From contig JAKATL010000009.1 of the NCBI GenBank assembly GCA_021827985.1, forward strand, positions 1 to 64,000: a stretch of 64,000 nt of DNA, read 5' to 3'. The first letter of the stretch is position 1; each line of letters begins with the position of its first letter. Both the position numbers and the translations under genes were made by a program. This DNA comes from a bacterium. GTDB taxonomy: Bacteria; Chloroflexota; Dormibacteria; Aeolococcales; Bog-877. The notes beneath the pieces were generated by a model that saw nothing but the letters and a program-made list of their open reading frames with translations, was not told where the DNA came from and made no database searches. Of this stretch, positions 185-20,234 are shown one piece after another.

Positions 185-230
185 GCTGCCAGCGCGTCGC
201 AGCAGGCAGCAGCACAAAGGAGCCCTCGAG

Positions 231-1770: not shown

Positions 1771-1774
1771 CCGC

Positions 1775-2005: not shown

Positions 2006-2101
2006 GGGAGTGCATGGGTCCAGGTGGGCCCCTCGATCTTCAAAATCGATGGGGGGCGCCTAAGGCGTCCCCGGAGGGATCGTTCCCCTCGCCTCCCGCC
2101 A
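2006..2101 (+). tRNA. selC: tRNA-Sec (UCA anticodon), selC; also attL of the island
   Basis: The sequence folds as a selenocysteine tRNA. The D stem has 6 bp (2016-2021 with 2026-2031) closed by a 4-base loop, as is typical of tRNA-Sec. The anticodon stem 2033-2037/2045-2049 encloses the 7-base loop CTTCAAA with anticodon TCA at 2040-2042. There is a long variable arm of 8-9 bp (2052-2060/2064-2072, loop TAA) and a T stem 2074-2078/2086-2090. The 3' end is GCCTCCC, discriminator G, then encoded CCA. The 5' strand GGGAGTGC pairs with it as 7 bp only if U at 2011 is bulged, and the T loop is ATCGTTC rather than TTCGANT. The 5' half is chromosomal and the 3' half (from 2038) arrived with or duplicates the island end. 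The tRNA delivers selenocysteine to UGA codons such as the one in fdhA. Confidence 0.85.
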
Positions 2102-2107: not shown

Positions 2108-2162
2108 ATTTGCCTGATTCGGCGCCTCGAGCGCTGTCTTCGCCTGCTCGCGGAAGGGGAGG

Positions 2163-2186
2163 TGACGGCAACGCTGACGGCAACGG
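2163..2186 (+). repeat. Tandem 11-bp motif, left end; probable integrase arm sites
   Basis: The motif TGACGGCAACG occurs twice in direct orientation with one base between (2163-2173 and 2175-2185). It starts 56 bp inside the left att repeat. The identical 24-bp double motif occurs at 9129-9152 near the other end. Paired short repeats at both ends of an element coding a tyrosine integrase are typical arm-type binding sites; the assignment is inferred. Confidence 0.65.
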
Positions 2187-2493
2187 GAGTCGGCGCCGCC
2201 AGAGCATGCCCCGGCTTCTCCCGGAAGTGAGGTGCGGTCGCTGAGGAAGGCCATCCAACGGCCCTGGGCCCGAGCCGACCAGCCCCCACTGTCCGGAGGT
2301 TCACACCCCAGTTGACATGGGCGATCCCATCGCTTGAGGCCCGTCGGGACGCCCACCTACACAGCGTGAGGTGTTGTTCGCCCCCAGCCCGGGGACGAGT
2401 CCGTAGGTCCCATCGGACTCCGTCGGGGGGAGCCCCGTGGGACGAACCGACGGACTTGCCGTGCGTCTCAGCGAGCCCGCGTGGCTGTTTGCC
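2187..2493. other. Non-coding left-end spacer of the island, with a hairpin
   Basis: No credible gene. An imperfect inverted repeat spans 2398-2456: AGTCCGT pairs with ACGGACT (2450-2456) and, inside it, GTCCCA (2407-2412) pairs with TGGGAC (2438-2443). It lies just beyond the 3' end of the leftward SIMPL gene and could act as its transcription terminator, although there is no T-run. Confidence 0.4.
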
Positions 2494-3177
2494 TCAATCC
2501 GGCCTTCCCAGGGGCCCCGGAACCAGCGCGAAGGTCACGATCACGCGCGCTTCCAGCAGGACGCTGCCAGACTCGACCTCGACCTCGCTGGGGCCAGCCG
2601 CCGCCCGAGCCGGCGGCAGTGCGCCCATCATGGCCATATTGACCTGATGCCGGGGCCGACTTCCGCCCTCTTCGTGGACCCGGATTGGTCGTCCCAACGC
2701 CAGCCCCAGAGCGTCCGCACAGACCTCGGCCCGTTGCCGAGCGTCTGTAGCGGCGCGCCGCACGACCTCCATGTGCTGAGGGTTGCGGCCGCCGACCGAC
2801 CAGTAGGGACCGCCGACATTGGCTTCGGCTTCGTCGACCGCTCGACTGATCAGGCTGCTCAGAGGCCCGTCCGCGTCCATGCGGACCCGGACTGTAGCCT
2901 GGGCGCGGTAGCCGGCCTGCGGGCCGCGCTCGTCGTACCGTCGCGCCACCTGGACCCCAGTCGTGACTCGGCGCCGCCCCGGGATCTCAAGGTCGTCGAG
3001 GAGCTCGACCAAGCGCTTGGAGTGCCGGGCGGCCTTCTCATAGGCTCTGCCCTTGTCGCGGTCCTCACCAACCACCTGCAACCAGATCTCCACCCGGTCG
3101 GGAGGGACGCGGGCCGTGCCTTGTCCGCTCATGGTGATCGTGTCGAGGCCTTCCCGGGACGATTGGGCGTCTTCCAC
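2494..3177 (-). CDS. SIMPL domain (DUF541) protein
   Basis: A 227-residue protein of the SIMPL/DUF541 family (OMP26-like folds of unclear function, often in envelopes or linked to signalling). Typical features are the opening ITMSGQGTARVPPDRVEIWL, the central VTTGVQVARRYDERG, the GYRAQATVRVRM strand, and the late strand VEVESGSVLLEARVIVTFALV. No signal peptide precedes the domain, so it is probably cytoplasmic, unlike many relatives. I chose GTG 3177 because AGAGGGAG lies 4 bases upstream; a TTG at 3195 would add six residues. It is island cargo next to the integrase and reads leftward. Function unknown. Confidence 0.8.
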   Translation of the reverse strand: MEDAQSSREGLDTITMSGQGTARVPPDRVEIWLQVVGEDRDKGRAYEKAARHSKRLVELLDDLEIPGRRRVTTGVQVARRYDERGPQAGYRAQATVRVRMDADGPLSSLISRAVDEAEANVGGPYWSVGGRNPQHMEVVRRAATDARQRAEVCADALGLALGRPIRVHEEGGSRPRHQVNMAMMGALPPARAAAGPSEVEVESGSVLLEARVIVTFALVPGPLGRPD

Positions 3178-3405
3178 TGCACTCCCTCTGGTCAATCGTC
3201 GGCTGACCGGATGTGATCCGCGACGGCTCGACGAATCTTCTCTCCAGGGACCTCAGCGCGCAACCGGGGCGCGAGGGCGACTCCACATCCTCGACCTCTG
3301 GCCGCGAACCAACCGCACGATCTCGAACCATGGGCGCCGGCGGGTGGCGACGACAGCAGCGAGAGCTGGTTACACCGGCCGTCTCAAGCAGGGCCGGCGT
3401 CATCG

Positions 3406-4539
3406 TCAAGACCTTCCGATCACCGCGTCCATCCGCTGCACCGCGGCTTGCTGCATGTCTGGGGTGACGTGGGAGTAGCGGTCCAGGGTCATCGCGATCG
3501 TGGAGTGTCCGAGCATCTCGGAGACCACCTTCGGATGGACTCCTTCCCTCAGCAGAAGGGTAGCCGCGGTATGTCTCAAGTCATGAAAGCGGATCTGTTG
3601 CAGCCCAGCCTGGGTCAGCAGCGGCCAGAACTCGCGACGAAGAACGTGCTCCCCCGAGAGGGGCTGGCCCGTAGGGCCGGTGAACACGAAGTCGTCATCC
3701 TTCCACTCAGCACCCACCGCTTCGCGCTCCCCCTCCTGCGAGATCCGCCGCTGCTGCAGGGCCTCTATCGCCCTCATCGTGAGAGCGATCTGGCGCCTTC
3801 CCCTTGCCGTCTTGGGCTCGCTCAGAGTCCATTCGCCTCCAGGCTTGGGGACCAGGGTCGCCACCACGCGCAGATTCCTGCGGTCGAAGTCGACAGCACT
3901 CCACTGCAGCCCGAGCACCTCCCCGAGTCTCATTCCTGTGCTCACTGCCACCACGAAGAGGGCTTCGAGCCGATGCCCCCGCGCCGCGTCGAGAAATGTG
4001 AGAACCTCCTCCGGGCCCAGGGTTGTCATGTGAGATGGACTCATCCGAGGAGGCCGAACCAGTTCAGCCACGTCCCGGGAGAGGCGACCCCAGCGCATGG
4101 CATCAGCCAGCGCCTGGTGGAGCACCGAGTGGGCCTGGTGAACTGAAGTCGGACTCAGCCCCTTGGCAAGGAGACGGTCTTGCAACCGCTGGACGTGATC
4201 GGGCCCGAGCTTGGACAGCTGCACTGCACCCAACTCCGGAGCCAGGTGCAGGCGCACGTATTCCTCGTAGCGGCGCCAACTGCCGGCCCTGATCTGCGAC
4301 CGGACGGTCGGTATCCAAGCGGTCAAGAACTGCCCCACGGTCTCACTCTGATGGGCAGCCGGTAACCCGGAGTCACGAGCCTGGAGAGCCACGCGGAGGC
4401 GGGCGGCCACGGCGCCGCGCGTCTTGCCGCAAAACCGCTGACGGACGCCATCGACAACAAGAGCGGCTTCCCAGCGACCGTCCGCTCGGTGGTAAATAGT
4501 GCCCTCTCCGTTGCTCCGCCATCCCACCGAGCTACCCAC
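3406..4539 (-). CDS. int: Tyrosine-type site-specific integrase of the island
   Basis: A 377-residue phage-type integrase that recombines attachment sites, here inferred to be the selC 3' half. The N-terminus (residues about 10-50) resembles an AP2-like arm-binding domain. A SAM-like core-binding domain (about 65-165) and the catalytic domain (about 170-370) follow. The catalytic residues are all present: Arg204 in TGMRLGEVLGL, Lys243 in EPKTARGRR, His319-x-x-Arg322 in HDLRHTA, His345 in LGHSTI and the nucleophile Tyr355 in DRYSHV. Nothing looks truncated, so the enzyme is probably active. It points toward attL, the common layout for tRNA-borne islands. No excisionase gene was found beside it. 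Confidence 0.93.
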   Translation of the reverse strand: MGSSVGWRSNGEGTIYHRADGRWEAALVVDGVRQRFCGKTRGAVAARLRVALQARDSGLPAAHQSETVGQFLTAWIPTVRSQIRAGSWRRYEEYVRLHLAPELGAVQLSKLGPDHVQRLQDRLLAKGLSPTSVHQAHSVLHQALADAMRWGRLSRDVAELVRPPRMSPSHMTTLGPEEVLTFLDAARGHRLEALFVVAVSTGMRLGEVLGLQWSAVDFDRRNLRVVATLVPKPGGEWTLSEPKTARGRRQIALTMRAIEALQQRRISQEGEREAVGAEWKDDDFVFTGPTGQPLSGEHVLRREFWPLLTQAGLQQIRFHDLRHTAATLLLREGVHPKVVSEMLGHSTIAMTLDRYSHVTPDMQQAAVQRMDAVIGRS

Positions 4540-5215
4540 CTACGACGCTGGTGGGGACTGCCACCAGCCACGCAGAGAAGTCGGAGGCGGGTACCGCGAT
4601 GGACCAGAGGACGACCACTGCCCTCAGCACCGCGTGATTTGGCAGCGCTCCCGGTAGAACCTCAAACTGCACCATCCCCAGAGACGTCCGCCGAGACCAG
4701 GCTAGTTGGCCGATGACGGACGCCTGGATGTGGCCTGGGGACCGGGAGACCAGGACAAGCGTTGGCTGAGACGAGCCCAGATCGCGGACATGTATTTTGA
4801 CCCCACGGTGTTACAGGCACTCGTGGGGTCACGGGGGCTCGCCGGTGGCCCGCATCCGAAATGCTCACGGCGAACAGCTGCGCGATTCCACCCGCTCCCC
4901 GGCGTGTGCACGCGAAGCTGGGCCGCCGTGTCGGCACGGCCCGCCTTATCGGTCGCGCCGGTCCACTCCGTCCCTGGCAGTCGCGACGGGCCGGTCTTGG
5001 TACGCCTTGGTGGCGTCCCGCGACCGGCCTATCACTACCCCCGCTCGGTAGGCAACGGCGGAACGTCTGGCGACCTTGGCGCTGGCCCTGAGTCGCCGAC
5101 CCTGGGCACGTAGCTCTGGGCGGCCAGCGGCGAGCACTTTTACCGGCGGCCCCGAAAGACCCTCAGTGAGCCAGCGGCACCGCAACGATGAGCTGGGTAG
5201 ACTGTGGGCATCCAG
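4540..5215. other. Gap between integrase and abiEi-like gene
   Basis: About 680 bases with no ORF that I can recognise on either strand. Short frames here have no start signals or familiar motifs. This is where a small excisionase gene would be expected, but none is visible. The sequence may be remnant DNA. Confidence 0.4.
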
Positions 5216-5252
5216 TATGCGTATCGTGTCGTTTATTGATAGAATGCGCATA
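5216..5252 (+). promoter_or_regulatory. Putative promoter/operator of the AbiEi-like gene
   Basis: TAGAAT at 5240-5245 resembles a -10 box and ends six bases before the ATG at 5252, so the transcript would be leaderless or nearly so. Inverted 6-bp arms TATGCG (5216-5221) and CGCATA (5247-5252) bracket this box. AbiEi proteins are known to repress their own promoter by binding inverted repeats, so this could be the operator. No good -35 is seen. Confidence 0.4.
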
Positions 5253-6061
5253 TGGCGCTGCGCATCGCCGATCTCCCCGACGCCCTGCTGGCAGACGGCC
5301 AACCGTGGTTCACCACCCAAGAAGCAGCAGCTCGTACGCGGCGCGGACTAGGTGCGGTGCATCTTGGGCTTTCGCGTCTGAGGCGCGCCGGACGCGTCTT
5401 CTCCCCAGCCGAAGGCTTTTACGTGGTCGTACCGCCGGACTTTCGGTCTTGGGGAGTGGTTCCTGGCGAGTGGTTCATTGATGGCATGATGCAGCACCTC
5501 CATCGCGACTATTACGTCGGGCTGCTCAGTGCGGCCGAGATGCATGGCGCAGCTCACCAGGCACCCCAGGCGTTCCAGGTGATGGTCGACCGACAGCTTC
5601 GGGATCGCGACTGCGGGCGGGTCCACATGCGCTTTGTCACCAGCCGCCTCGTCGGACATGTGCCGACCGTGGGGAGGGCGGTTCACACCGGCTACGTCAC
5701 AGTCGCAGCCCCTGAGACCCTGGCCGTGGACCTCTCGACCTTCCCGGAGCGGGCTGGGTACTGGAGCAACGTCGCCACGGTCTTGCGAGAGCTTGGGCCA
5801 TTGGATGGCGCGGCTGTGGCTCGGATCGCGGCGCAGCAGCCCGTCCCTGTGGCTCAGCGTCTCGGGTGGCTGGCGGAGACCTTTCATGGCCAGGTGGATC
5901 TTGGTCCACTCGCCGAGTTGGTTCGCGGCGCCCGCACCGTCCTGCTCGAGCCTGGGAGTCGGACGCCGATCCTGACGACAGACAGGACTTGGCATCTGAG
6001 GGTGAACGCAGTTGTGGAACCGGACGCGCAGATGATCCCCGACGTTTATCTGCCTCAGTGA
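5252..6061 (+). CDS. AbiEi-family antitoxin / transcriptional regulator (orphan)
   Basis: A 269-residue protein resembling type IV antitoxins of the AbiEi group. It has an N-terminal winged-helix domain (FTTQEAAARTRRGLGAVHLG, LRRAGRVFSPAEGFYVVVPP) and then the C-terminal domain with YYVGLLSAAEMHG, the conserved AAPETLAVDL block and a helical tail. In AbiE systems the antitoxin is followed by the nucleotidyltransferase toxin AbiEii. Here the stop at 6059-6061 runs straight into a fragment of an unrelated glycosyltransferase and no toxin is present. It may be a solitary regulator or the surviving half of a broken system. The start is the ATG just after a -10-like box. Confidence 0.7.
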   Translation: MALRIADLPDALLADGQPWFTTQEAAARTRRGLGAVHLGLSRLRRAGRVFSPAEGFYVVVPPDFRSWGVVPGEWFIDGMMQHLHRDYYVGLLSAAEMHGAAHQAPQAFQVMVDRQLRDRDCGRVHMRFVTSRLVGHVPTVGRAVHTGYVTVAAPETLAVDLSTFPERAGYWSNVATVLRELGPLDGAAVARIAAQQPVPVAQRLGWLAETFHGQVDLGPLAELVRGARTVLLEPGSRTPILTTDRTWHLRVNAVVEPDAQMIPDVYLPQ

Positions 6062-6351
6062 TCTGCGCGGGAGGGTGGAGCCTCACGACCAAGGAATTGG
6101 CCGCTGGCATGCCGGTCAGGGTGCTGTCCCACGGCCTCGACACCGCAAACGTGGCCAGCGCGGTAGTCGCCCACTCGTGCGGAGTCTGGATACGGCCGCC
6201 CGCGGACACCCCAGCCCACTTGGCTGCGGCGATCAGGACGCTACTTCGAGAGCCGGCGATAAGAGGGGGTGCTGTCGGGATGGCCGAGCCGGACGCTCCA
6301 GTAGCGGCTGCGCGCAGGGCCGTGGCAGCAATTGAGGCTGCGCTCGAATGA
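6049..6351 (+). pseudogene. Glycosyltransferase (MGT/GT1) C-terminal remnant
   Basis: In a frame different from the gene before it, about 100 residues match the C-terminal nucleotide-sugar-binding half of macrolide/UDP-type glycosyltransferases. The pieces are SVICAGGWSLTTKELAAG, MPVRVLSHGLDTANVA, HSCGVWIRPPADTPAHLAAA and a final helical RRAVAAIEAALE. Intact enzymes of this family have about 400 residues and usually GGxGT where CAGGWS occurs here. No start codon fits and the N-terminal half is absent, so it is a leftover from recombination that replaced the region downstream of the abiEi-like gene. Confidence 0.6.
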
Positions 6352-6418
6352 CGGGCCTGCCGCTATCGACCGCGGAGCCCGAAACTCACCCGGACGGATC
6401 GGGTCCAGACGCTCCGTC

Positions 6419-7489
6419 TCAGGGACGGAGCGCCCAGATCACCGAGTGAACTCCAAGTCCCTCCCGGATGCTGCCTTCAGAGGTGATCTCCAGTCCCGCC
6501 GCACCGAGCCAGCCGCGATAGGTCGCTCGGTCGGCGTGGCTCCACCACATCTGCGCGTCCCCACCCAGCCAACCGTCCTCCGCCCCTGTCCAGGCCGTGT
6601 CTCCCGCAGTCAGCAGCAGTCGCCCTCCGGGCCTGAGCCAGCCCGCGATGTTGCCGATCAACGGGGCCTGCGCCTCAAGTGGGAGGTGGATGATCGCGTA
6701 CAGGCACACCACCGCGTCGAAGGCCGCTGCGCCGAATTCAAGGGCCGTGATGTCGGCCTTGACGAAGTCCGCTGTCGGGACCAGTTGCTTGGCGCGAGCG
6801 ATCTGCACGTCGCTGAAGTCCACCCCTGTCACGTGGTGCCCAGCCCCAGTCAGGTCTCGGGCCACAGGGATTCCACAGCCGCAGCCCAAGTCCAGAACCT
6901 CAGCCTTTTCACCGAGGTGGTCCAGGAGCTCACGAATCCACAGCCGGTGCTCGGGGGGAGTCTCGCTGTCGCCGCGATACGTGGTGGAAACCCGGTTATA
7001 CCCCTCCCGGACGACGGCTCGACGATCGCGCGAGTCAACGGTCGAAATTCCAAGCTCCTTCAGGAGCGTGGCCAAGCCATCTGGATACACCGTCTCCTTG
7101 GTGCTCCTCAGTGCTTCACAGGACCACCAGCCACACGCCTCGACAACTCGACGTTCTCCGTCTGTCCAGCCAGAGTCGCTGATGTCGAAGTGCTCGCAGC
7201 GAACCAGGAAGTAGTCTTCTGCCTGAGAGAACTGCGTGCCCTCGAACTCGTACTCGACCTGGCGGCATAGGACGACGGGACCAAGGTCGGTCACCTCGAG
7301 TCCCGTCTCCTCTCGCACCTCGCGTTTCGCCGCCGTTTCCGCCAGCTCCCCAGACTCGACTGCTCCCCCAGGGGTGAACCACCACGTGCCGGCGGCAGGC
7401 CGGGCGGGATCTCCACCGCGAAAGAGCAGAACCGCTCCGGACTCGTCCACCAGGATGACCCGGGCCGCTCGGCGTCTTTGCATGCTCAC
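6419..7489 (-). CDS. Nudix hydrolase - SAM methyltransferase fusion
   Basis: A 356-residue two-domain protein. Residues about 8-140 are a Nudix hydrolase: FTPGGAVESGELAETAAKR then EVREETGLEV fits the Nudix box Gx5Ex7REUxEExGU, preceded by ARVILVDESGAVLLF. Residues about 150-356 are a class I methyltransferase with motif I VLDLGCGCGIPVARDL, HHVTGVDFSDVQIARA and a motif-IV-like FDAVVCLYAIIHLP, followed by LRPGGRLLLTAG. The Nudix part would cleave a nucleoside diphosphate derivative and the second part would methylate a small molecule; substrates are unknown. It is a single open frame without breaks, so it is a true fusion. It lies alone in the island and reads leftward. A role in defence or nucleotide detoxification is speculation. 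Confidence 0.85.
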   Translation of the reverse strand: MSMQRRRAARVILVDESGAVLLFRGGDPARPAAGTWWFTPGGAVESGELAETAAKREVREETGLEVTDLGPVVLCRQVEYEFEGTQFSQAEDYFLVRCEHFDISDSGWTDGERRVVEACGWWSCEALRSTKETVYPDGLATLLKELGISTVDSRDRRAVVREGYNRVSTTYRGDSETPPEHRLWIRELLDHLGEKAEVLDLGCGCGIPVARDLTGAGHHVTGVDFSDVQIARAKQLVPTADFVKADITALEFGAAAFDAVVCLYAIIHLPLEAQAPLIGNIAGWLRPGGRLLLTAGDTAWTGAEDGWLGGDAQMWWSHADRATYRGWLGAAGLEITSEGSIREGLGVHSVIWALRP

Positions 7490-7738
7490 TCCCGCATCCT
7501 AGAGGGTGCCGAACCTGGCGCCCGGTGCTTCGTGGAAAGCACACCTCGTTGGCGGCATGTGGTCTCTCTCGTGTCACCATCCATCCACGGCGCCGGTGAA
7601 ACAGTAGCGACCTTGCCCAGAGGGCTCCCCATGTGCTGGCCGCTCTGCGTCGTGCTTGGCGTTCCCGCGTCGGGCCTGCTGCTGCCACTCTCGTCGTCCA
7701 CAGGCCCGCCTGTTGGCCCCCGCGAAGCTCCGCGCGGC
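7490..7738. other. Short spacer in the island
   Basis: About 250 bases upstream of the Nudix-methyltransferase gene and downstream of the HEPN gene. It should hold the promoter of the first and the terminator of the second. I see no clear signals or genes. Confidence 0.3.
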
Positions 7739-8197
7739 CTAGCGATTTTGGGACCAGTCAGCCTTCTTGGGCCCGACAATCTTCTCCGCAGCGGCCACGA
7801 TGTCCCCGGCAGCGGCGAGGTCCTCCTCCAGCTCAGCGGGATCGACCGGATAGCCGTGGTACTCAGCGAGATTGCGCGTACGGCGCATCCGGTCCAACTG
7901 CTCAAGGGCCCGGGCGCCCGGGGCGGGACCATAAAGCTCTTGCATGATGAGGATCAGGTTAGCATGCGCTCCTTGACCCCGAACCCTCAGACCGCGCGCC
8001 GCCAGAGTAGCAGTGCAAGCCTTGCGGGCAGCATCGTAGGCCAGTTGATATGCGCCGGCCAAGTCCGACTCGCGGACGGCCAGCCGGGCGGTCCTAAGGT
8101 GCCCGCGTGCATCATCGAGGAGCCGGGCGGTGGCGGCGGGATCCGGTGCTATGTCCTGGAGCAGGCCTTGGCGACGCAGGTCCTCCAGGCGGGTCAC
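7739..8197 (-). CDS. HEPN-domain toxin of a HEPN/MNT module
   Basis: A 152-residue helical HEPN protein. The hallmark R-x4-6-H motif is RNLAEYH, near residue 115, as in RNA-cleaving HEPN toxins. The upstream helices (LLDDARGHLRTARLAV, AYQLAYDAARKACTA) match the family. Its GTG start at 8197 overlaps the TGA stop of the nucleotidyltransferase gene, so the two are translationally coupled. In type VII toxin-antitoxin systems the MNT partner AMPylates or otherwise neutralises the HEPN ribonuclease. The pair probably serves island maintenance or phage defence (inferred). Confidence 0.85.
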   Translation of the reverse strand: MTRLEDLRRQGLLQDIAPDPAATARLLDDARGHLRTARLAVRESDLAGAYQLAYDAARKACTATLAARGLRVRGQGAHANLILIMQELYGPAPGARALEQLDRMRRTRNLAEYHGYPVDPAELEEDLAAAGDIVAAAEKIVGPKKADWSQNR

Positions 8198-8781
8198 GGC
8201 TTCTCGGCCAAGGGGACGGGAACCAGCGCCCCACTCCGAACCGCGATCAAGAAGCCCTCCTCAGGCCTGGCCCACGCCTCAGGGGAGCGGACCAGGGCGT
8301 TGACATCAAGACCGAGCCGCTCCTCGGCTGCGCGGGCGGCCCGGTGAACCGCGTTCCGATCAGGCAAGCCAATGACCAGGACATCGAGGTCCTGAGGGGG
8401 TGGCCCCTGCTGCCCGGCCGCGCGCTCCGCCCAAGAGCCATAGATCCATGCCGCCTGGATGCCTGGGACTCGGTTCAATTCTTGGGCGACAATGTGGGCG
8501 GGGCCAACCGCCTTCAAGACCAACGCCTTGACCTCTGGCAGGATGGGAGATTCGGGGTTGGCTTGAACGAGACGGAGGTTGCCGACCCGCCGACTGCGGA
8601 GCAGGCCGGCTGACTCCAGCCGGTCGACCTCCCGGTTCACCGTGGCGTGATGTACGCCCAAGCGGCGGGCGAGATCCGAGAGGGAATGCTCGGTGTCCGG
8701 GTTGATCAGCACCAAAGCCAGTAGCTCTGCTTGGTGGGCTGAGCGGAAGAGCGGAAGGAGAGGAGGCGCCGGTGTGTGCAC
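8194..8781 (-). CDS. MNT antitoxin with N-terminal winged helix
   Basis: A 195-residue protein with an N-terminal winged-helix DNA-binding domain (about residues 20-75: HSLSDLARRLGVHHATVNRE then VDRLESAGLLRSRRVGNLRL) and a C-terminal minimal nucleotidyltransferase domain. The latter has GSWAERAAG followed by DLDVLVIG, the GSx10-12DxD catalytic signature. It is the partner of the downstream HEPN toxin. The wHTH suggests that it also represses the operon. I place the start at GTG 8781 because a TAGAAT -10-like box at 8797-8792 (minus strand) would put transcription initiation at or near this codon; GTG 8790 lies too close to the box. The much longer upstream frame runs through non-coding DNA. 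Confidence 0.83.
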   Translation of the reverse strand: MHTPAPPLLPLFRSAHQAELLALVLINPDTEHSLSDLARRLGVHHATVNREVDRLESAGLLRSRRVGNLRLVQANPESPILPEVKALVLKAVGPAHIVAQELNRVPGIQAAWIYGSWAERAAGQQGPPPQDLDVLVIGLPDRNAVHRAARAAEERLGLDVNALVRSPEAWARPEEGFLIAVRSGALVPVPLAEKP

Positions 8782-8815
8782 GACGCGCACTATTCTAGGC
8801 GCTATGCGCACACAC
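8772..8815 (-). promoter_or_regulatory. Putative promoter and operator of the MNT-HEPN operon
   Basis: Perfect 8-bp inverted arms GTGTGTGC (8772-8779) and GCACACAC (8808-8815) bracket the -10-like TAGAAT (minus strand, 8797-8792) and the start codon. A repressor bound here, such as the winged-helix MNT protein itself, would block initiation of a leaderless transcript. The layout parallels the abiEi promoter in the same island. Confidence 0.5.
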
Positions 8816-9128
8816 GCGCACCGGTCACGGCCCTGACCGGCACTGGCTGGAGTTGGCGGGCCGGGGCCAGGCTTGGCCGCTGTACGCTGCCACAAGGGCG
8901 CGGGATTGGCCAGGGCGCCAAAGGGGTGGTCGCTCACAACTGGGCAGCCCCCCGTGTCACTGGGAGCGGACCGCGACCCATGTGGCAATCGAATGGAGAC
9001 GGCGCCGAAGTGCCCGACGGGCAAGACGACGCAGCGATCAAGGGCCGTGGGATTCTGATAGCGACGTGCCCAGGGGCCCGGGACTTGTTGGATCTGCCTG
9101 GGAATGGCGGTGGGGCCCGGGACCATGC
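8816..9128. other. Right-end spacer of the island
   Basis: About 310 bases between the MNT operon promoter and the right-end arm motif. Frames are open on both strands because of base composition, but none has a start signal or recognisable motif. Confidence 0.35.
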
Positions 9129-9152
9129 TGACGGCAACGCTGACGGCAACGG
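9129..9152 (+). repeat. Tandem 11-bp motif, right end; probable integrase arm sites
   Basis: TGACGGCAACG occurs at 9129-9139 and again at 9141-9151. The 24 bases are identical to those at 2163-2186 and in the same orientation, 103 bp before the right att repeat. Confidence 0.65.
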
Positions 9153-9254
9153 CGCCGGACGTAGGCGAACCACGGCGGACCTTGACGTACTCAGGTCCCG
9201 GAAACCGACTTCGTGGCGCATGCCTGCGCACGTCGGCGGACAGCCTTGGGGGAG

Positions 9255-9324
9255 CTTCAAAATCGATGGGGGGCGCCTCAGGCGTCCTCGGAGGGATCGT
9301 TCTCCTCGCCTCCCGCCACTTCAA
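9255..9324 (+). repeat. Direct repeat, right copy (attR), selC 3' half without 5' half
   Basis: This is the second copy of the 70-bp repeat. It starts at the anticodon loop and includes the variable arm, T arm, acceptor 3' strand and CCA. The DNA to its left is not a tRNA 5' half, so it cannot make a tRNA. The T stem carries a G-U pair where the left copy has G-C. It marks the original position of selC upstream of selA. Confidence 0.85.
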
Positions 9325-9377
9325 CTAAGGCAGCTGTCGTCCGCGGACTGCGTTCACCTTGCTGATCGGTAGCCGGT

Positions 9378-9466
9378 GGCGCCGGCGCCGGGCCGGCGCC
9401 GAACAGCGAGCCTCGCGTCGGACGGGGAGTAGGATCGCTGCAGGGCTCGGCACCCGGTCGGTGCCG
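9378..9466 (+). promoter_or_regulatory. Two strong hairpins in the selA leader
   Basis: GGCGCCGGC at 9378-9386 and GCCGGCGCC at 9392-9400 form a perfect 9-bp stem with a 5-base loop. CGGCACC at 9448-9454 and GGTGCCG at 9460-9466 form a 7-bp stem, also with a 5-base loop. Neither has a U-run, so they are not classical terminators. They lie between the selC remnant and selA, where processing of a joint selC-selA transcript or attenuation would act. Confidence 0.45.
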
Positions 9467-9513
9467 CCGGTGAAGTTGAGTCCCAATTCGGGCTGCTGCC
9501 AGGTGAGATCAAG

Positions 9514-10893
9514 GTGCGCTCGCAATCGGACGTAGTGGGGACCGGGGGTCCCCGTCCTCCCGCCGTCGGACGGCTGCTCCAGCAACCGGACGTCGCGGCC
9601 CTCGCCGCGCGCCATGGGAGGATGGCCACGACCGCCGCGGTCCAGACCGCGGTAGCGGAGGCCCGGGCGGGGCGGCTCGTCCCCGGTGACGAGCCGGGGC
9701 TGGCGGCGCGCGTCGCCCAGCTTCTGGACGGCTCCCCGCACCAGCTCCGGAGGGTCATCAACGGGACCGGGGTTGTCATCCACACCAACTTGGGGCGTGC
9801 CCCGCTGGCCGCCCGGGCGGCCGCTCGCGCGGCCGAGCTGGCCGCGGGGTACACCAACCTGGAGCTGGACCTGCGAACCGGTCGGCGCGGTGACCGCCAC
9901 TCTCTCCTTGCCGACCTCCTACGCCGGCTGGTGGGGGTGGAGGAGGCCATGGTGGTCAACAACGGGGCCGCGGCGGTGCTCCTGGGACTGACCGCGCTCT
10001 GTCGCGGGCGGGAGGTCCTGGTCTCTCGAGGCGAGGCCATCGAGATCGGTGGGGGCTTCCGGATTCCCGACATCCTCCGCCTCTCCGGCGCCAAGTTGGT
10101 GGAGGTGGGGACCACCAACCGCACTCGGGTGTCGGACTATGAGCAGGCCTGCACCCCCCGGACCGCGGCCTTCCTCCGGGTCCATCAGTCCAACTTCCGG
10201 ATCACCGGGTTCACCGCCCGCCCGCGCCTCCCCGAGCTGGCGGCCGCGGCCCACCGGAGGAATCTGCACTTCCTGGAGGACGTCGGCAGTGGACTCCTGC
10301 CCCCTGCCCCTTCCGGGGCCGCGAACGAGGCTCGGCTGGGCCGGAGCTGGGCAAACGGGGCGGACCTCATCTTCTGCAGCGGCGACAAGCTCCTAGGAGC
10401 AAGCCAGGCGGGGCTGGTGCTGGGACGGGCGCAGCTGGTGGAGACGCTGCGCCGACACCCCTTGGCGCGCGCTCTCCGCCCCGACAAACTCCAGCTGGCG
10501 GCGCTCGAGGAGACCCTGCGCTGCATCGAGGCGCCCGGCGGGCTGGAGCAGGTGCCGGTGTGGGCGATGCTCCGTGCGGATCCGCGGCGGCTCCGGCAGA
10601 GGTCCGAGCGGTGGGCCGAGCAGCTCCGCGGGATTGGCGTTCCGGCCGAGGTGACGGCCACCGAGGGCGCCGTAGGGGGAGGCATCACCCCGGGGGACCC
10701 GCTTCCGTCCTTCGGCATCCACATCGCCTGCCCCCGGCCCGGGGCGGTCCGGCGGCGGCTTCTGGCGGCCGAGACCGCAGTGCTCTGCCTGGAGCGCCCC
10801 GGCGGGATCGTCGTCGATGCGCGCTGCGTCCTCCCCGGGGAGGATCAGCCGCTCATCGCTGCCTTGGCGGCGGTCCTGGGGGCCGCCGCGTGA
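9514..10893 (+). CDS. selA: L-seryl-tRNA(Sec) selenium transferase
   Basis: A 459-residue PLP enzyme that converts Ser-tRNA(Sec) to Sec-tRNA(Sec) using selenophosphate, close to the usual length of about 460. It shows the N-terminal tRNA-binding helices (ALAARHGRMATTAAVQ), RVINGTGVVIHTNLGRAPL, TNLELDLRTGRRGDRHS, and the PLP-lysine site SGDKLLGASQAG with Lys292. The start is GTG 9514 with AGGTGAG 6 bases upstream. Its stop overlaps the selB start (GTGA), and selB overlaps selD, so the three form one coupled operon. It lies directly right of the selC remnant, which means that selC originally stood at the head of this operon. Confidence 0.96.
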   Translation: MRSQSDVVGTGGPRPPAVGRLLQQPDVAALAARHGRMATTAAVQTAVAEARAGRLVPGDEPGLAARVAQLLDGSPHQLRRVINGTGVVIHTNLGRAPLAARAAARAAELAAGYTNLELDLRTGRRGDRHSLLADLLRRLVGVEEAMVVNNGAAAVLLGLTALCRGREVLVSRGEAIEIGGGFRIPDILRLSGAKLVEVGTTNRTRVSDYEQACTPRTAAFLRVHQSNFRITGFTARPRLPELAAAAHRRNLHFLEDVGSGLLPPAPSGAANEARLGRSWANGADLIFCSGDKLLGASQAGLVLGRAQLVETLRRHPLARALRPDKLQLAALEETLRCIEAPGGLEQVPVWAMLRADPRRLRQRSERWAEQLRGIGVPAEVTATEGAVGGGITPGDPLPSFGIHIACPRPGAVRRRLLAAETAVLCLERPGGIVVDARCVLPGEDQPLIAALAAVLGAAA

Positions 10894-12800
10894 CCGAGCT
10901 GACCGTGGGGACCGCCGGTCACATCGACCACGGCAAGACCGCGCTGGTCCGGGCGCTCACCGGTGTGGACTGCGATCGGCTTCCTGAGGAGAGGGCTCGG
11001 GGGATGACCATCGAGCTGGGGTTCGCCCCCCTTCGCCTCCCCTCTGGCCGGGAGGTCTCCGTTGTGGATGTGCCTGGCCATGAGCGGTTCCTACGCACCA
11101 TGGCCGTGGGCGCCCGGTCCATCGATCTTGCGCTGCTGTGCGTGGCGGCGGACGACGGGGTGATGCCCCAGACCCGGGAGCACGCGGCGGTGCTCCGCCT
11201 GTTGCGGGTCCGCTCCGCCCTGGTCGCGGTAACCAAGCAGGACACCGCCCCCGAGGGCGCCGAGGCTGTGGGCCGAAGCGCCTTCGAGCTGCTGCGTCAG
11301 GCCGGGGTTGCCGCGACCCGGGTGGTGGTGACCAGCTCGGTGACCGGCATGGGGCTCCCCGACCTCGCCGCTGCCATCGACGCCGAGCTGGCGGCGATCG
11401 CCGCCCCCCAAGACCGGGGCATCCCTCGGCTCCACGTCGATCGGGGCTTCTCCCGCACGGGGGTGGGCACCGTCGTGACAGGGGTCCTCATGGACGGTCG
11501 GCTCACAGTCGGCCAGCAGGTGGAGGTCTTCCCCTCCGGGGCTCGGGGCCGGATCCTGGAGCTGCAGCGCCGGGGCCGGGCGGTGGAGGCGGTGGAGCCG
11601 GGAGGACGGCTGGCTGCCTCCCTGCGGGGGGTGCCGGCGGAGTCGGCCCCTCGCGGGAGCGTGCTCGGCCGTCCCGGGGACGCCAGCGGCACAGCCCTTG
11701 TGGACTGCCTCCTCGAGGCCCCCGAGGTGGGGGCTTCCGGGCTGCGCCAGGGGGTCCAGGTAGAGGTCCTCTGCGGCACTGCCACCAGCCGCGGGAGGGT
11801 CTGGCTGGCCGGGGAGGAACGACTGACGACGGGCAGCCGGGGCTTCGCACAGCTCTCGCTCGAGGCCCCCATCTGGGCGATCCCCGGTGACCGGATCATC
11901 CTGAGGGGGCAGGGACCGCTGTCGGTGCTCGCGGGCGGCGTGGTCCTGGACGCTCACCCGCGTCGGCACCGGCGCTGGGTAGATGCCCCGTTGGACCAGT
12001 GGACTGCCCGGGAGAGGGCGCTCCGGCGGCAGCCGGATCTCGGCACGCTCGCCGTCCTGGAGGCCGGCTGGGCCCCGGCGGGGCTGTCCGCCGCCGAGGT
12101 CGGCAGACGGGTGGGCTGCTCCCCGGACCTCATCTCAGCTGCGCTGCAGGCAGCCGAGGAGGGCGGGCGGTTGGCCCGGTTGGGGTCGGTCCACATCGAC
12201 TCGGGTAGGTTGGCCGAGCTCCGCTCGCAGGCGGTGGCCCGGGTGGTCTCCTACCAGCGGCTCCACCCACTGGAGCCGGGGATGCCCCGGCGCCAGCTCC
12301 TGGCCGAGCTCGGCTTGCAGCGCCCGGCGGTGGGGGACTCCCTGCTGTCCGAGCTCGCCGCAGAGGGTCTTCTGGAGCAGCGCGGAGGAACGGTGGCCGA
12401 GGCGGGGAGCCTCCCTCCGGGCCGGACCCCCCAGGTGGAGAGGGTGTCCCAGCTGCTGCGGTCCGCGGGCAGGCTGCCCCCGGGGCCGGGGGAGCTTCGT
12501 GCCGCCGGGCTCACCCGCCCGGTCGAGGGTTATCTGGTGCAGAGCGGCGAGGCGGCTCGGCTACCGGGAGGCGGGCTGATCTCCGCATCTGCTCTGGAGC
12601 AGATGGAGTCGGAGATCGAGGCCGAGCTGCGCCGCTCTCCCGCTGGTCTCACCGTCGCCCAGCTCCGGGACCGGGTCGGCACCAGCCGCAGGATCCTGCT
12701 CCCGGTCTTGGAGCGCATGGAGGCCGGAGGGGAGTTCTCCCGCAGCGGGGACCTGCACCTCTGGCGCCCGGAGCGCTCCCGGGAGCTGCAGTGCGGCTGA
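10890..12800 (+). CDS. selB: Selenocysteine-specific elongation factor
   Basis: A 636-residue GTPase that carries Sec-tRNA(Sec) to UGA codons marked by a SECIS hairpin. The G1 loop is GHIDHGKT (residues 10-17), the switch II region is VVDVPGHERF, and TKQD stands for the nucleotide-base motif. Translation-factor beta-barrels follow to about residue 350. The remaining 280 or so residues contain tandem winged-helix domains that bind SECIS RNA, for example LRDRVGTSRRILLPVLERME near the end. The GTG start at 10890 overlaps the selA stop; a longer upstream frame lies within selA and is a shadow. The full-length C-terminal part agrees with the bacterial SECIS found in fdhA. Confidence 0.96.
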   Translation: MTELTVGTAGHIDHGKTALVRALTGVDCDRLPEERARGMTIELGFAPLRLPSGREVSVVDVPGHERFLRTMAVGARSIDLALLCVAADDGVMPQTREHAAVLRLLRVRSALVAVTKQDTAPEGAEAVGRSAFELLRQAGVAATRVVVTSSVTGMGLPDLAAAIDAELAAIAAPQDRGIPRLHVDRGFSRTGVGTVVTGVLMDGRLTVGQQVEVFPSGARGRILELQRRGRAVEAVEPGGRLAASLRGVPAESAPRGSVLGRPGDASGTALVDCLLEAPEVGASGLRQGVQVEVLCGTATSRGRVWLAGEERLTTGSRGFAQLSLEAPIWAIPGDRIILRGQGPLSVLAGGVVLDAHPRRHRRWVDAPLDQWTARERALRRQPDLGTLAVLEAGWAPAGLSAAEVGRRVGCSPDLISAALQAAEEGGRLARLGSVHIDSGRLAELRSQAVARVVSYQRLHPLEPGMPRRQLLAELGLQRPAVGDSLLSELAAEGLLEQRGGTVAEAGSLPPGRTPQVERVSQLLRSAGRLPPGPGELRAAGLTRPVEGYLVQSGEAARLPGGGLISASALEQMESEIEAELRRSPAGLTVAQLRDRVGTSRRILLPVLERMEAGGEFSRSGDLHLWRPERSRELQCG

Positions 12801-13813
12801 CCGAGCTCAGTGGCCAGGGGGGGTGCTCCGCCAAGATCGGGCAGGCGGATCTGGCGGCGGTGTTCTCCCGACTTTTGACCCCGCCGGCAGGACCCCTCTT
12901 GGTGTCCGCGGAGGGCCTGGACGACGCCGCTGTCTACCAGGTGAGCCAGGAGCTGGCCCTCGTGGCGACCACCGACTTCTTCCCGCCCCCGGTAGACGAC
13001 CCCCGGGACTACGGGGCCATCGCCACCGCCAACGCGCTCTCCGACGTGTACGCCATGGGGGGGAGCCCTCTGTTGCTTCTCAACCTGGTGGGCTTCGACC
13101 TGGCCGCCCTGGGCGGAGAAACGCTCCGGGAGATTCTGGAAGGTGGAGCGGAGGTCGCCCGCGAAGCGGGCTGCGCCGTGGCCGGCGGCCATTCGATCCG
13201 CACCTCCGAGCCGATCTTCGGGTGTGCCGTGGTGGGCGCGGTGCATCCCGGCAGGGTGGTCACCAATTCATCGGCTCGCCCCGGGGACCGGCTGCTTTTG
13301 ACCAAGCCCCTCGGTACGGGGGTGGTGCTGAGCGCCCACAAGCAGCAGCGCGTCACGGCTGAGACGCTGGCGGAGGCGGTCTCGGTGATGCGCCGGCTGA
13401 ATCGGAGCGCGGCCGCGGCGATGCTGGTGGGCGGGGCCAGCGCGGCCACCGACGTCACCGGGTTCGGCCTCCTGGGGCACGCCCACAACCTGGCCACGGC
13501 CTCCGGGGTGGTGGTGCGCCTGGTGGCGGAGAGGTTGCCGATCCTCCCCGGCGTCCCAGAGCTCATCCTCCAGGGGCTGGTGCCGGGTGGCAGTCGCCGC
13601 AATTTGGAGCTGGCCCGCTCCCGCTGCCGGATCGGGAGCGGGGTTGACCCTCTGCTCCTTCAGCTGGCCTGCGACGCTCAGACCAGCGGCGGCCTCTTGA
13701 TCGCCGCCCCACCTCCCGGCGCCGACCTCATCCTCTCCGCCGGGGTGGGCGCGGTCGAGGTGGGGGAGGTGCTGCTGGTCCGGGGCGGGCAGCCGCCTGT
13801 CGAGCTGGTCTAG
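12791..13813 (+). CDS. selD: Selenide, water dikinase (selenophosphate synthetase)
   Basis: A 340-residue enzyme that makes selenophosphate from selenide and ATP, of normal length. The active-site loop is GQGGCSAKIG, with Cys12 and Lys15 in the positions of E. coli Cys17 and Lys20. This is therefore the cysteine form and needs no UGA decoding itself. Other family blocks are EGLDDAAVYQV, TTDFFPPPVDDPRDYGAI and ATDVTGFGLLGHAHNLA. The start GTG at 12791 lies inside the end of selB (10-base overlap). Its stop overlaps the 3' end of a small convergent gene. It completes the selenium operon selA-selB-selD. Confidence 0.96.
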   Translation: MRLTELSGQGGCSAKIGQADLAAVFSRLLTPPAGPLLVSAEGLDDAAVYQVSQELALVATTDFFPPPVDDPRDYGAIATANALSDVYAMGGSPLLLLNLVGFDLAALGGETLREILEGGAEVAREAGCAVAGGHSIRTSEPIFGCAVVGAVHPGRVVTNSSARPGDRLLLTKPLGTGVVLSAHKQQRVTAETLAEAVSVMRRLNRSAAAAMLVGGASAATDVTGFGLLGHAHNLATASGVVVRLVAERLPILPGVPELILQGLVPGGSRRNLELARSRCRIGSGVDPLLLQLACDAQTSGGLLIAAPPPGADLILSAGVGAVEVGEVLLVRGGQPPVELV

Positions 13814-15373: not shown

Positions 15374-16288
15374 TCAGGGCCCCTGGCTCTCCACCAGATA
15401 GCTGGGATCGTCCACAGCCTGGAACCCGGCCCGGTAGACCGCCTGACGCAGGAGGGCTGAGGATCCCAGGGCGATAGCTCCGCCGAGCCGCAGCAGGAGT
15501 GGGCTCCGTCTCCCGGCGAGCACCAGCACCGCGCTCGTCCACGAGGCGAGCCTGTGGACCCGGGCGAGGCGTCCGCCCCTGCCAGTCCGGTAGGGCTCGG
15601 CGAGCGGTCCCAGGTGGGACTCCATGGCCAGGAAGGCCGCCTGCTCCAGCGCTGTCCCGACCACCACCATGCGGCGGGACACCGGCCTTCCCTCCTCCGG
15701 GCCGGCCAGACAGAGCGCCCCACCGGCGGCCGCCAGCGAGCTCCCGGAGAAGACGAAAGGCAGAAGGTGGCGTCCCGCGCGCCAGATGGGGTTGGCGGTG
15801 TCGCCTAGGAGCACCGCCGTGTAATTGGCGAGAATCGGCCCCAGGATGCCTGCCGCCCCTTCCATCGTTCCGGTCACCGCCACCGGGAGGCCGGCCAGGT
15901 CCGCCGCCTCGGCCATCCCCAGAGCGCTCCCGAAGCCGGCCAGGGTCCAGCTCCCCAGGCTCATCGGGGAGGTCGGCCGTACCACCCTCAGCATGTTCAG
16001 GAAACGCGCCGGACGCCCCAGGTCGGAGATCAGCAGCGCCGGGCTCACCAGCGCCCCCGCCAGCGCCATGCGGCGAGCGCTCCGGCCCATTCGGTGCTGG
16101 CCGGACCAGCGGGCCAGGATGGAGGTGGCGGCGAGGGCACCGGCGGTGCCTCCGGTGAAGAAGTAGAGGGGTACCTCCCAGGTCCAGGCGGGGCGCCGCA
16201 CGATCGGGAGTCCGTAGTAGGAGCGGGGCCGCTCCCGCGGCACCAGCGGCCTCTCGGCCGGCTCCTCCCGCCCTCCTACCGCCGCCAT
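15374..16288 (-). CDS. nrfD: NrfD-type membrane subunit of formate dehydrogenase
   Basis: A 304-residue polytopic protein of the NrfD/PsrC family, the quinone-reactive anchor that passes electrons from an iron-sulfur subunit to menaquinone. Diagnostic parts are WEVPLYFFTGGTAGALAATS, LISDLGRPARFLNMLRVVRP and SPMSLGSWTLAGFGSALG. About eight hydrophobic segments are visible. I moved the start to ATG 16288 because AGGAG stands 7 bases upstream and the overlap with fdhB then falls to 13 bases; a longer frame begins at 16348. It is the last gene of the fdhA-fdhB-nrfD operon and replaces the cytochrome b subunit used by E. coli FDH-N. Confidence 0.9.
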   Translation of the reverse strand: MAAVGGREEPAERPLVPRERPRSYYGLPIVRRPAWTWEVPLYFFTGGTAGALAATSILARWSGQHRMGRSARRMALAGALVSPALLISDLGRPARFLNMLRVVRPTSPMSLGSWTLAGFGSALGMAEAADLAGLPVAVTGTMEGAAGILGPILANYTAVLLGDTANPIWRAGRHLLPFVFSGSSLAAAGGALCLAGPEEGRPVSRRMVVVGTALEQAAFLAMESHLGPLAEPYRTGRGGRLARVHRLASWTSAVLVLAGRRSPLLLRLGGAIALGSSALLRQAVYRAGFQAVDDPSYLVESQGP

Positions 16289-17097
16289 CTGATCGCTCCT
16301 GCCAGGCCGCCCACCAGGAGCCAGGCCGCCACTGACGCTGCTCCCCACATGGTGACCACGTCCCGGCGCCGGTACTCCGGGCGGGGTGGGAGCCCATACA
16401 CCTCGGGGCGGTCCAGCAGGAGAAAGAAGGCGCCGAAGCCGCCCACACCGTCCGACTCGTCGGCCCCGTAGAGGTGCGCCTCCTCACCTCCAGGCTGGGC
16501 TCGCACCTGCTCGAGGCGGGCGTGGGCCGTCTCGAGCAGCTCCTCCAAAGGCCCGAACTGGATGGACGCCGTCGGACAGGCCTTGGCGCAGGCGGGCTGC
16601 TCCCCGATCTTGAGACGGTCGTAGCAGAGGGTGCACTTGAAGGCCCGGCCGTCGTCCTCCCGGCGCTCGATCACCCCGAAGGGGCAGGCGACCACGCAGT
16701 AGCCGCAGCCGTTGCAGACGTCGTCCTGGACCACCACTGTCCCGAACTCGGATCGGAAGATCGCCCCAGTGGGGCAGACCTCGAGGCAGGCGGCCCGGGT
16801 GCAGTGCTTGCACACGTCGGAGCTCATGAGCCATCTCACCCCGGCAGCGTCGTCCTGGCGCACCCGCTCCACGAAGGCCACGTGGCGCCAGCTGTTGGCC
16901 CCCAGCCGGAGGGTGTTGTCGTAGGAGTTGCCGCTCCAGGCCGGTTTGGAGTCGGGCACCCCGTTCCACTCCTTGCAGGCCACCTCGCAGGCCTTGCAGC
17001 CGATGCAGACCGAGCTGTCGGTGAAGAACCCCATCCGGGTTCCGCCGGCCTGCCACAGGGGCAGGGCCAGTGTCGGCAGCCGCGGCCCGGGGGTCAC
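16276..17097 (-). CDS. fdhB: Formate dehydrogenase iron-sulfur subunit
   Basis: A 273-residue ferredoxin-like electron-transfer subunit. Four cysteine clusters are visible: CIGCKACEVACKEWNG, CKHCTRAACLEVCPTGAI, CNGCGYCVVACPFGV, and CTLCYDRLKIGEQPACAKACP, giving four [4Fe-4S] centres in the FdnH pattern. Unlike FdnH there is no obvious C-terminal transmembrane helix of usual length, only a hydrophobic tail VAAWLLVGGLAGAI that may serve as one. The GTG start at 17097 overlaps the fdhA stop (GTGA), indicating coupling; an internal ATG at MGFFTDSS is an alternative. It links the selenoprotein catalytic subunit to the NrfD anchor. Confidence 0.93.
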   Translation of the reverse strand: MTPGPRLPTLALPLWQAGGTRMGFFTDSSVCIGCKACEVACKEWNGVPDSKPAWSGNSYDNTLRLGANSWRHVAFVERVRQDDAAGVRWLMSSDVCKHCTRAACLEVCPTGAIFRSEFGTVVVQDDVCNGCGYCVVACPFGVIERREDDGRAFKCTLCYDRLKIGEQPACAKACPTASIQFGPLEELLETAHARLEQVRAQPGGEEAHLYGADESDGVGGFGAFFLLLDRPEVYGLPPRPEYRRRDVVTMWGAASVAAWLLVGGLAGAIRWRR

Positions 17098-20000
17098 GAC
17101 GGCGCCTGGTCAGCCCGCCGTCCGGGCCGGACGTCGCAGGTGGCGGCCTTGACCTCCTGGATGTGGACGTTGGGGTCCAGGACCAGCGGGAAGAGGTCGT
17201 TGGCGGAGTCGCCCCGGACCAGCCCGCGGCTCCCCCAGTGGTAGGGGAGCCCGACCTGGTGCACCTGCTGACCCTGGACTCGAAGCGGTGTGAGGCGGGC
17301 AGTGACCAGGACCCTGGCCTCGATCGAGGCCCTCTCCGTGACGATGGTCGCCCATCCGCCATGCCGAAGCTGCCGGAGCTCGGCCAGCTCCGGGCTAACC
17401 TCGCAGAACATCTCCGGCTGGAGTTGGCTCAGCCGGGCCAGGAAGCGGCTCATGCCGCCGGCGGTATGGTGCTCGGTGAGCCGGTACGTGGTCATCACGA
17501 AGGGGAAGCGATCGGCGCCCTCCTCGCCCGCAGTCGGGTGGTAGGGGTTGTCGGGACGCCGGAAAAGCTGGCGAGCGGGGTTGGCCTCCTGCTCGTAGAG
17601 CGGGTTGTGCGTCGGCGACTCCTGCGGCTCGTAGTGGGTGGGCAACGGCCCATCGAGCAGCCCGCTGGGGGCGAACAGCCAGCCCCGGCCGTCCGCCTGC
17701 ATGACGAAGGGGCGGTCCCCGGGGAGGGAGTTCTCGGCCGAGGCGCCCGGCGGCGGCTGGTAGGTGGGGGCGCGATCGACCGGGAAGTCGGGAACGTCCG
17801 GCCCGGTCCAGCGCCCCAGCTCAGGGTCCCAGGCCAGGTAGCGCTTGCGCTCCGACCAGGGCTGTCCGGAGGGGTCGGCGGAAGCCCGGTTGTACAGGAC
17901 CCGACGGTTCATCGGCCAGGCCCAGCCCCACTCCGGCGCCACCCAGCTCTGCTCCCAATGAGGACGGCGACGAGCTGCCTGGTTCTGTCCGCCTGCGAAT
18001 GCCCCGCAGTAGATCCAGGTCCCTGAACTGGTGCTGCCGTCGTCGCGGAGCGCCCCCAATCCGGGGAGCGGGCTGCCGTCGGCCGCCACACCGCTGATCT
18101 CCCGCAGGACCGCCTCGGCCCGTGGTTCCTGCTGCTCACCCTCCAAGGGGTAATCCCAGGTGAGGTCCAGGATCGGCCGGTCACGGTCCAGCCGCCGCCG
18201 CTCCAACTTCTCCCGGATGCGCCGCCCCAGCCAGTAGGCGAACCAGAGCTCAGACCGGCGGTCCCCAGCCGGGTCCACCGCCCGCTCATGCCACTGGAGA
18301 AGCCTCTGGGTGTTGGTGAAGCTGCCGTCCTTCTCCGTGTGGGCGGCCGCCGGCAGGAGGAACACCTCGGTGCCGATCTCCTCGCTCCGGACCTCACCGG
18401 CGGCCACCTCCGGCGAGTCGCGCCAGAAGCTTGCGGTCTCGATCTCATACAGGTCGCGGACCACCAGCCAGTCCAGGTTGCGCAGCCCTCTCCGGTGCAG
18501 GGTGCCGTGGGCCGAGCCCACGGCCGGGTTCTCCCCGAGGACGAAGAACCCCTTCACCGTCCCGTCCACCATACCCAGGGTGCTCTGGTAGGTCGAGTGG
18601 TCGCCGGTGAGCCGGGGGAGGTAGTTGAAGGCGAACTGGTTGTCGGCGGTGGCGGCGTCGCCCCAGTAGGCCTTGAGCAGGGAGACCAGATAGGCCTTGA
18701 GGTTGCCCCAGTAACCGCCAGCGGCACCTCCGTGAGGCCGGCAGAAGCCGTCCAGGTCGGTGGCGTCCTGGGCCATCGGCATGGGCAGGTAGCCGGGAAG
18801 AACGTCGAAGAGGGTGGCGATGTCGGTGGCCCCCTGGATGTTGGCGTGGCCCCGGAGGGCCAGGATGCCGCCCCCCGGCCTGCCCATGTTCCCCAGCAGC
18901 AGTTGCAGGATCGCCGCGGTGCGGATGTACTGCACTCCCACCGTGTGCTGGGTCCAGCCCACCGCGTACACGAAGCAGGTGGTCCGCTCCGGCCCCGAGC
19001 TATCGCAGATCAGCTCGGCCAGTCGCCGAAACTGGGCGGCGGGGACCCCACAGGTGCGCTCCACCATCTCCTCCGTATACCGCGAGAAATGGCGGCGCAG
19101 GAGCTGGAAGACGCAGTGGGGATCCTCCAGGCTGGGATCTTCGAAGGGGACCTCACCAGCCACCACGACACCTTCCCCCTGGGGCGGCGGGGCGGTCCGC
19201 TGCCCGGCCGCGGCCCAGACTGATCCCCCTCGATACTGCCAGGTGCGGTTCTCGTACATCCCTTGGTCCTGGTTCCAGCCGGAGAAGAACCCGTCCAGGT
19301 CCTCGGTGTCCAGGAAGTGCTCGTCAATGATGGTGGCGGCGTTGGTGTAGTTGACCATGTAGTCGCGGAAGTAGCGGTGGTTCTCCAGGACGTAGTGGAT
19401 CAGCCCGCCCAGGAAGGCGATGTCACTCCCCGCCCGCAGGGGTATGTGCAGGTCGGCCAGGGCGCTGGTCCGGGTGAAACGCGGGTCGACGTGGACCAGC
19501 TTCCCCCCCCGCTTCTGGGACTCCACCACCCACTGGAAGGCCACCGGGTGGCACTCCGCCATGTTGGACCCCATCACCACGACGCAGTCGGAGTTCACGA
19601 GGTCGCCGGGGAAGGTGGTGGCGCCGCCCCTACCGAACGAAGCCCCCAGACCGGGGACGGTGGCCGAGTGTCATATTCGGGCCTGGTTCTCGACCTGGAC
19701 CACGCCCAGGCCCACCATCAACTTGCGCCAGAGGTAGTTCTCTTCGTTGTCGATGGTGGCGCCCCCGAGGCTGGCGATCCCCATGGTGCGCCGGAGCGGC
19801 CGACCCTGCTGGTCGACCTCCTCGAAGGTGGCGTCCCGGGTGGCGATCACCCGATCGGCGATCATCTCCATGGCCGAGTCCAGGGAGATCTCCTCCCAGG
19901 AGGTGCCGTGGGGCCGACGGTACTTCACCTTCAACTCCCGCAGGGGGCTGTTGACCAGTTCCCGGCTGGCAGCGCCCTTGGGGCAGAGGCGGCCGCGCGA

Positions 20001-20234
20001 GAGCGGGCTGGCTGGGTCCCCCTCGATCTGGGTGACCTCCCCCTGGCGCACGTACACCAGCTGGCCGCACCCCACAGCGCAGTAGGGGCAGATCGAGGGG
20101 GCCACCCGGTCGGCGCTGGCGGTGCGCGCAGTGCGCACCTCGGTCAGGTTCGAGGTGCTGGTCCCCCCCAGGCCCAGAAGGTCCCTGCCGGTGACCTGCC
20201 GCCAGACCGGCCAGCGCCGCGCCTCAAACGGCAT
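17094..20234 (-). CDS. fdhA: Formate dehydrogenase catalytic subunit, selenoprotein (UGA = Sec188)
   Basis: A molybdopterin formate dehydrogenase of 1046 residues if the in-frame TGA at 19673-19671 is read as selenocysteine. The context NQARI-Sec-HSATVPGLGASFGRGG matches the active site of E. coli FDH-N (NQARV-U-HGPTV). The frame continues without interruption on both sides. The N-terminus has the [4Fe-4S] motif CPYCAVGCGQLVYV with LCPKGAASRELVNS. Downstream are VVVMGSNMAECHPVAFQWV, the bis-MGD domains, and a C-terminal dinucleotide-binding domain ending in QVHQVGLPYHWGSRGL. The N-terminus has no clear twin-arginine signal with hydrophobic core, so the active site may face the cytoplasm. It oxidises formate and feeds FdhB and NrfD. 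No fdhD/fdhE maturation genes are nearby. Confidence 0.95.
19632..19670 (-). promoter_or_regulatory. SECIS element of fdhA
   Basis: It starts immediately after the UGA. The mRNA has CCCC, loop GGUCU (bases +19 to +23, window 19652-19648), then GGGG, extended by G-C and U-G pairs. An outer ACCG/CGGU stem lies across an internal loop. E. coli fdhF has the same GGUCU loop at the same distance from its UGA. The hairpin is the SelB recruitment site. Confidence 0.9.

Follow-up and report, generated by a model that had tools for sequence, protein, structure and literature searches.

Two neighbouring open reading frames (ORFs) on the minus strand of the window (the whole stretch of 64,000 nucleotides that was analysed) are separated by a TGA codon, and the question that this locus raises is whether that codon ends translation or is read as selenocysteine (Sec). 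The reading that we favour, with a probability of about 97%, is that the two ORFs are a single formate dehydrogenase (FDH) gene whose internal UGA is read as Sec. Comparisons at the sequence level lend strong support to read-through, through the matches to family models, the alignment to solved Sec-FDHs, the compensatory changes in the SECIS hairpin, the exchange of Sec and Cys among relatives, and the co-occurrence with selA.

One reading frame and a formate dehydrogenase

The ORF at 19671-20234 (minus strand) encodes 187 amino acids followed by the TGA, and the ORF at 17094-19598 (minus strand) encodes 834 amino acids starting from a GTG. Translation of the minus strand from 20234 to 17094 gave one frame of 1046 codons in which the lone internal stop was the TGA at 19673-19671, and reading this TGA as U yielded 1046 residues with U at position 188, in the context NQARI-U-HSATV. 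An earlier note on this DNA had described the ORFs as the halves of one gene, and this description was borne out, as its coordinates were right, the frame is shared and only the TGA lies between the two parts.

The coding sequence restarts at 19670, right behind the TGA, and the GTG at 19598 is merely the first in-frame start codon. Comparison with relatives revealed that the 24 codons between the TGA and this GTG are conserved coding sequence. Within this stretch, codons 199-212 differed among relatives by 0.117, 0.137 and 0.415 at codon positions 1, 2 and 3, respectively, which is the pattern of translated DNA; since these codons would be untranslated if translation ended at the TGA, their coding-like divergence supports read-through. 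Additionally, the stop falls at the same residue in all of the stop-bearing close relatives, and both flanks of the TGA match a single family model (NF041513) end to end, which argues against a TGA that arose by chance.

The read-through protein, the catalytic (alpha) subunit FdhA (17094..20234, minus strand), scored 1784.6 bits over residues 6-1042 in a profile search against NCBIfam NF041513, above the cut-off of 1400, and the halves alone scored 291.7 and 1416.7 bits; the score of the read-through protein against TIGR01553 was 936.9 bits. The Pfam models PF04879, PF00384 and PF01568 matched its Fe4S4, molybdopterin and dinucleotide-binding domains. Solved Sec-FDHs of Desulfovibrio and E. 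coli FdnG aligned over ~1000 residues, nearly the whole length, and the X (Sec) of Desulfovibrio gigas FDH (PDB 1h0h) fell precisely on residue 188, in agreement with the earlier proposal that the TGA (19671..19673, minus strand) occupies the position of the catalytic selenocysteine. With U188-H189 aligned to 1h0h, the 4Fe-4S site, the molybdopterin domains and the active-site Sec/Cys-His were all present. Inspection by eye of FdhA residues 1-30 found RRWPVW without a hydrophobic stretch, and no obvious twin-arginine signal.

Genes for an iron-sulphur protein and an NrfD-family protein adjoin fdhA downstream on the same strand, in an order that is alike in relatives. The iron-sulphur (beta) subunit gene, fdhB (16276..17097, minus strand), matched Fer4_11, and also TIGR01582 with 184.7 bits, below the cut-off of 334.7; the product of the gene for the NrfD-type membrane (gamma) subunit (15374..16348, minus strand) matched PF14589 and PF03916 above their cut-offs. 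The predicted products make this locus an FDH1-type membrane FDH (alpha/FeS/NrfD).

SECIS hairpin and selenocysteine machinery

Behind the TGA lies a 17-nt hairpin (19658-19642, minus strand) of the form GUCCCC-GGUCU-GGGGGC, with 6 bp, a GGUCU loop located 18 nt after the UGA, and a folding energy of -9.7 kcal/mol. This hairpin conforms to the published bacterial SECIS model, which describes a loop of 3-9 nt, at least 4 bp, a G in the first two loop positions, a spacing of 16-37 nt and a minimum free energy of at most -7.5 (PMC13188914). A GGUCU loop is also found at the identical distance from the UGA in E. coli fdhF. Folding of 54 nt did not favour the SECIS (z = 0.99), whereas the local 36-nt fold did.

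Conservation of the hairpin was scored at seven positions, consisting of the six stem pairs and the loop-closing pair 22:26, and the 76 distinct relatives whose Sec codon is TGA or TAG kept pairing in 530 of the 532 pair cells. Shuffling synonymous codons between sequences, a null model that holds protein and codon supply fixed but not relatedness, gave 506.5±2.0 pair cells, and 530 was reached in none of 5000 trials. Compensatory changes were observed at pair 18:30 (C-G, U-A, U-G, G-C) and at pair 21:27 (C-G, G-C). The codon at positions 22-24 was GGT or AGT in every Sec sequence of the set; the four closest Cys homologues carried GGC, GGC, GCT and AGC there, and formed just 4-6 of the seven pairs. 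These comparisons indicate that the SECIS is conserved beyond protein-level constraint.

The complete Sec machinery that the earlier note had reported was found in the window. It comprises selA for selenocysteine synthase (9514..10893, plus strand; PF03841, 364 bits; TIGR00474, 448.7 bits), selB for the Sec-specific elongation factor (10890..12800, plus strand, start approximate; TIGR00475, 264.4 bits with a cut-off of 242; SelB winged-helix domains), selD for selenophosphate synthetase in its Cys form (12791..13813, plus strand; TIGR00476, 354.1 bits with a cut-off of 125) and a tRNA-Sec with anticodon UCA (2006..2097, plus strand; RF01852, 57.6 bits with a cut-off of 47; also supported by ARAGORN and by its fold).

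The fold of this tRNA-Sec has a U bulge at acceptor-stem position 6 and the T-loop AUCGUUC, both of which recur unchanged across six genomes of this family; its sister family in the order carries the usual UUCGAUU. As acceptor-stem bulges with a 7+5 fold have already been described in bacterial tRNA-Sec (PMC5330540), we rate the U6 bulge as a variant of a known tRNA-Sec type.

From the sequence we infer Sec insertion at residue 188, the use of formate as the substrate and the transfer of its electrons to quinone. In the proposed mechanism, SelA and SelD would generate Sec-tRNA(Sec), and SelB would bring it to the ribosome and bind the SECIS behind the UGA, such that the UGA would be read as Sec and not as a stop. 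The resulting enzyme would be a membrane-bound, molybdenum- or tungsten-dependent FDH with Sec188 of the catalytic subunit as a metal ligand, and electrons from formate would pass through the iron-sulphur beta subunit and the NrfD-type membrane subunit to quinone.

Relatives and rival readings of the TGA

Both selA and a TGA-bearing FDH were present in 25 of 41 related genomes and neither in 14 (Fisher p = 6e-9, a value that is optimistic due to the phylogenetic non-independence of the 41 relatives). The two discordant genomes, both incomplete, were G009, with a TGA-bearing FDH and SelA not found, and G029, with SelA and without such an FDH. In close relatives the Sec codon is TGA, TGC or TAG. 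The TGC codon occurs in Cys versions from Actinacidiphila, Nonomuraea, Chelatococcus and a genome of the same family as the window (G010; L141 1237-4380), in which SelA was not found. TAG replaces TGA in five Geodermatophilaceae (the Blastococcus/Modestobacter loci L030, L042, L043, L066 and L067), and TAG at the Sec codon is the known Sec reassignment of this family (PMC5330540). Two loci labelled Candidatus Dormiibacterota (L006 and L071) share the FDH region with G013 and G023, which belong to the window's family and order, so the 2.83-Mb genome that contains the window probably groups with Candidatus Dormiibacterota.

Two alternatives to Sec need to be considered. The TGA could instead stand for a different residue (Cys or Trp), through near-cognate reading or a changed genetic code, and this would be in line with the homologues that have Cys as an alternative, but the same gene terminates with TGA, a dedicated set of tRNA-Sec, SelA, SelB and SelD exists together with a SECIS, and the Cys homologues carry TGC and lose the hairpin, all of which make this reading very improbable. 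Still less credible is a real stop, in which a nonsense mutation or sequencing error would have left a pseudogene or two polypeptides: the standard code does yield two ORFs and a GTG is present at 19598, yet the identical TGA, with the SECIS retained, recurs in ~70 distinct relatives from several phyla, the 24 codons that follow it diverge like coding DNA, an in-frame start codon stands at the position of the GTG in just 9 of 105 relatives, no ribosome-binding site is visible upstream of this GTG, and a C-terminal half without residues 189-212 would lack the conserved active-site His. Taken together, the SECIS, the co-occurrence with selA and the TGC and TAG relatives make a real stop hardly tenable, and one gene with UGA read as Sec is the reading that we retain.

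A few homologues were unusual in other ways. One FDH paralogue (L157; G067:C172) carries TAG in place of a conserved Lys86 plus TGA at Sec188, which may represent an error, a pseudogene or recoding. The FDH match in G034:C153 and in G036:C83 is in two pieces, likely due to frameshifts or assembly errors. A double-Sec enzyme, suggested by two TGAs in several homologues of family f3, was rejected, as only the residue-188 TGA lay inside the alignment in the four that were fetched; the second TGA was taken as the natural stop, given that it had been counted only where the earlier match extended a few residues further.

Locus context, annotation and known systems

In three relatives (G004, G002 and G003), tRNA-Sec stands immediately before selA, and in the window ~7.1 kb lie in between. 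This interval holds an integrative element with defence-like genes (2108-9251). The element contains a tyrosine integrase (3406-4539), an AbiEi-like gene (5252-6061), a HEPN gene (7739-8197) and a MarR-like gene, and is bounded by two 73-bp copies of the tRNA's 3' portion (2035-2107 and 9252-9324, 95%). Element-related DNA was also found in G012, G015 and G017, partly on sel-bearing contigs. On the 5' side of tRNA-Sec, window positions 1-2005, where the contig ends, had no match to the corresponding DNA of the relatives that were compared, which have a short motif in common upstream of tRNA-Sec; thus, the 5' flank of tRNA-Sec may have been replaced.

A different enzyme occupies the same slot in the sister species G003 (L139 5698-12316), where an NAD-type Sec-FDH with NuoE/NuoF-like subunits replaces the membrane FDH, between the same lysE-like and HMG-CoA-lyase-like genes that neighbour the membrane FDH. 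In this gene too, the Sec codon is TGA, with GGT CTG behind it at the same distance, and NAD-type Sec-FDHs also occur in G001 and G009. We give even odds to the idea that the Sec locus of this clade is an exchange site, with a fixed sel operon, either a membrane or an NAD-type Sec-FDH, and integrative elements with defence-like genes that repeatedly target tRNA-Sec. If so, Sec use would persist while the client enzyme is swapped.

The earlier note had also regarded the FDH as hidden from standard gene callers. This applies to callers for which every TGA terminates a frame, and which would split the gene, but does not apply in general, as PGAP gives full-length orthologues. NF041513 is an NCBI exception-type model for the selenoprotein FDH family, and the orthologues of Arthrobacter (L129, with a CDS spanning 9007-12339) and Tsukamurella (L134) each carry a single full-length CDS annotation despite the TGA at the Sec codon; the FDH is therefore not hidden in general. 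For annotation purposes, read-through at this gene gives back the whole enzyme. The enzyme type is known already, and this case is an ordinary one, the same as in well-known bacterial Sec-FDHs. In a search of 5.39 million open papers, none named both Dormibacterota and formate dehydrogenase; descriptions of this clade are thus sparse, even if the enzyme itself is familiar. Altogether, these results add a well-supported Sec-dependent FDH for a poorly studied uncultured group, and suggest that members of this group could take electrons from formate, given available selenium.

The locus most directly resembles the NF041513 (formate_DH_Act) type and FDH1 of Actinomycetospora chiangmaiensis, with alpha, FeS and NrfD-like subunits encoded next to the sel genes and a UGA-Sec with SECIS. 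In Actinomycetospora, proteomics has revealed FDH1 (FdhA1 of 1078 aa, FdhB and FdhC, with SelA and SelB), and the organism needs a supply of selenite to remove formate (PMC7176365). Unlike that system, the host order here includes genomes labelled Candidatus Dormiibacterota and not Actinomycetota, the gene orientation differs, and the tRNA-Sec of the window is parted from selA by the inserted element. The fdh-FeS-nrfD-selD-selA-selB set is common to the window and to plasmids of Arthrobacter and Tsukamurella. E. coli FdnGHI (1kqf) and Desulfovibrio FdhAB (1h0h, 6sdr) share the catalytic subunit family and the Sec position, whereas the gamma subunit in the window is of the NrfD type and not a cytochrome b. 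Lastly, the UAG-decoded Sec-FDH of Geodermatophilaceae (PMC5330540) is a homologous enzyme with the same SECIS, but its Sec codon is TAG, in contrast to the TGA and UCA anticodon of the window.
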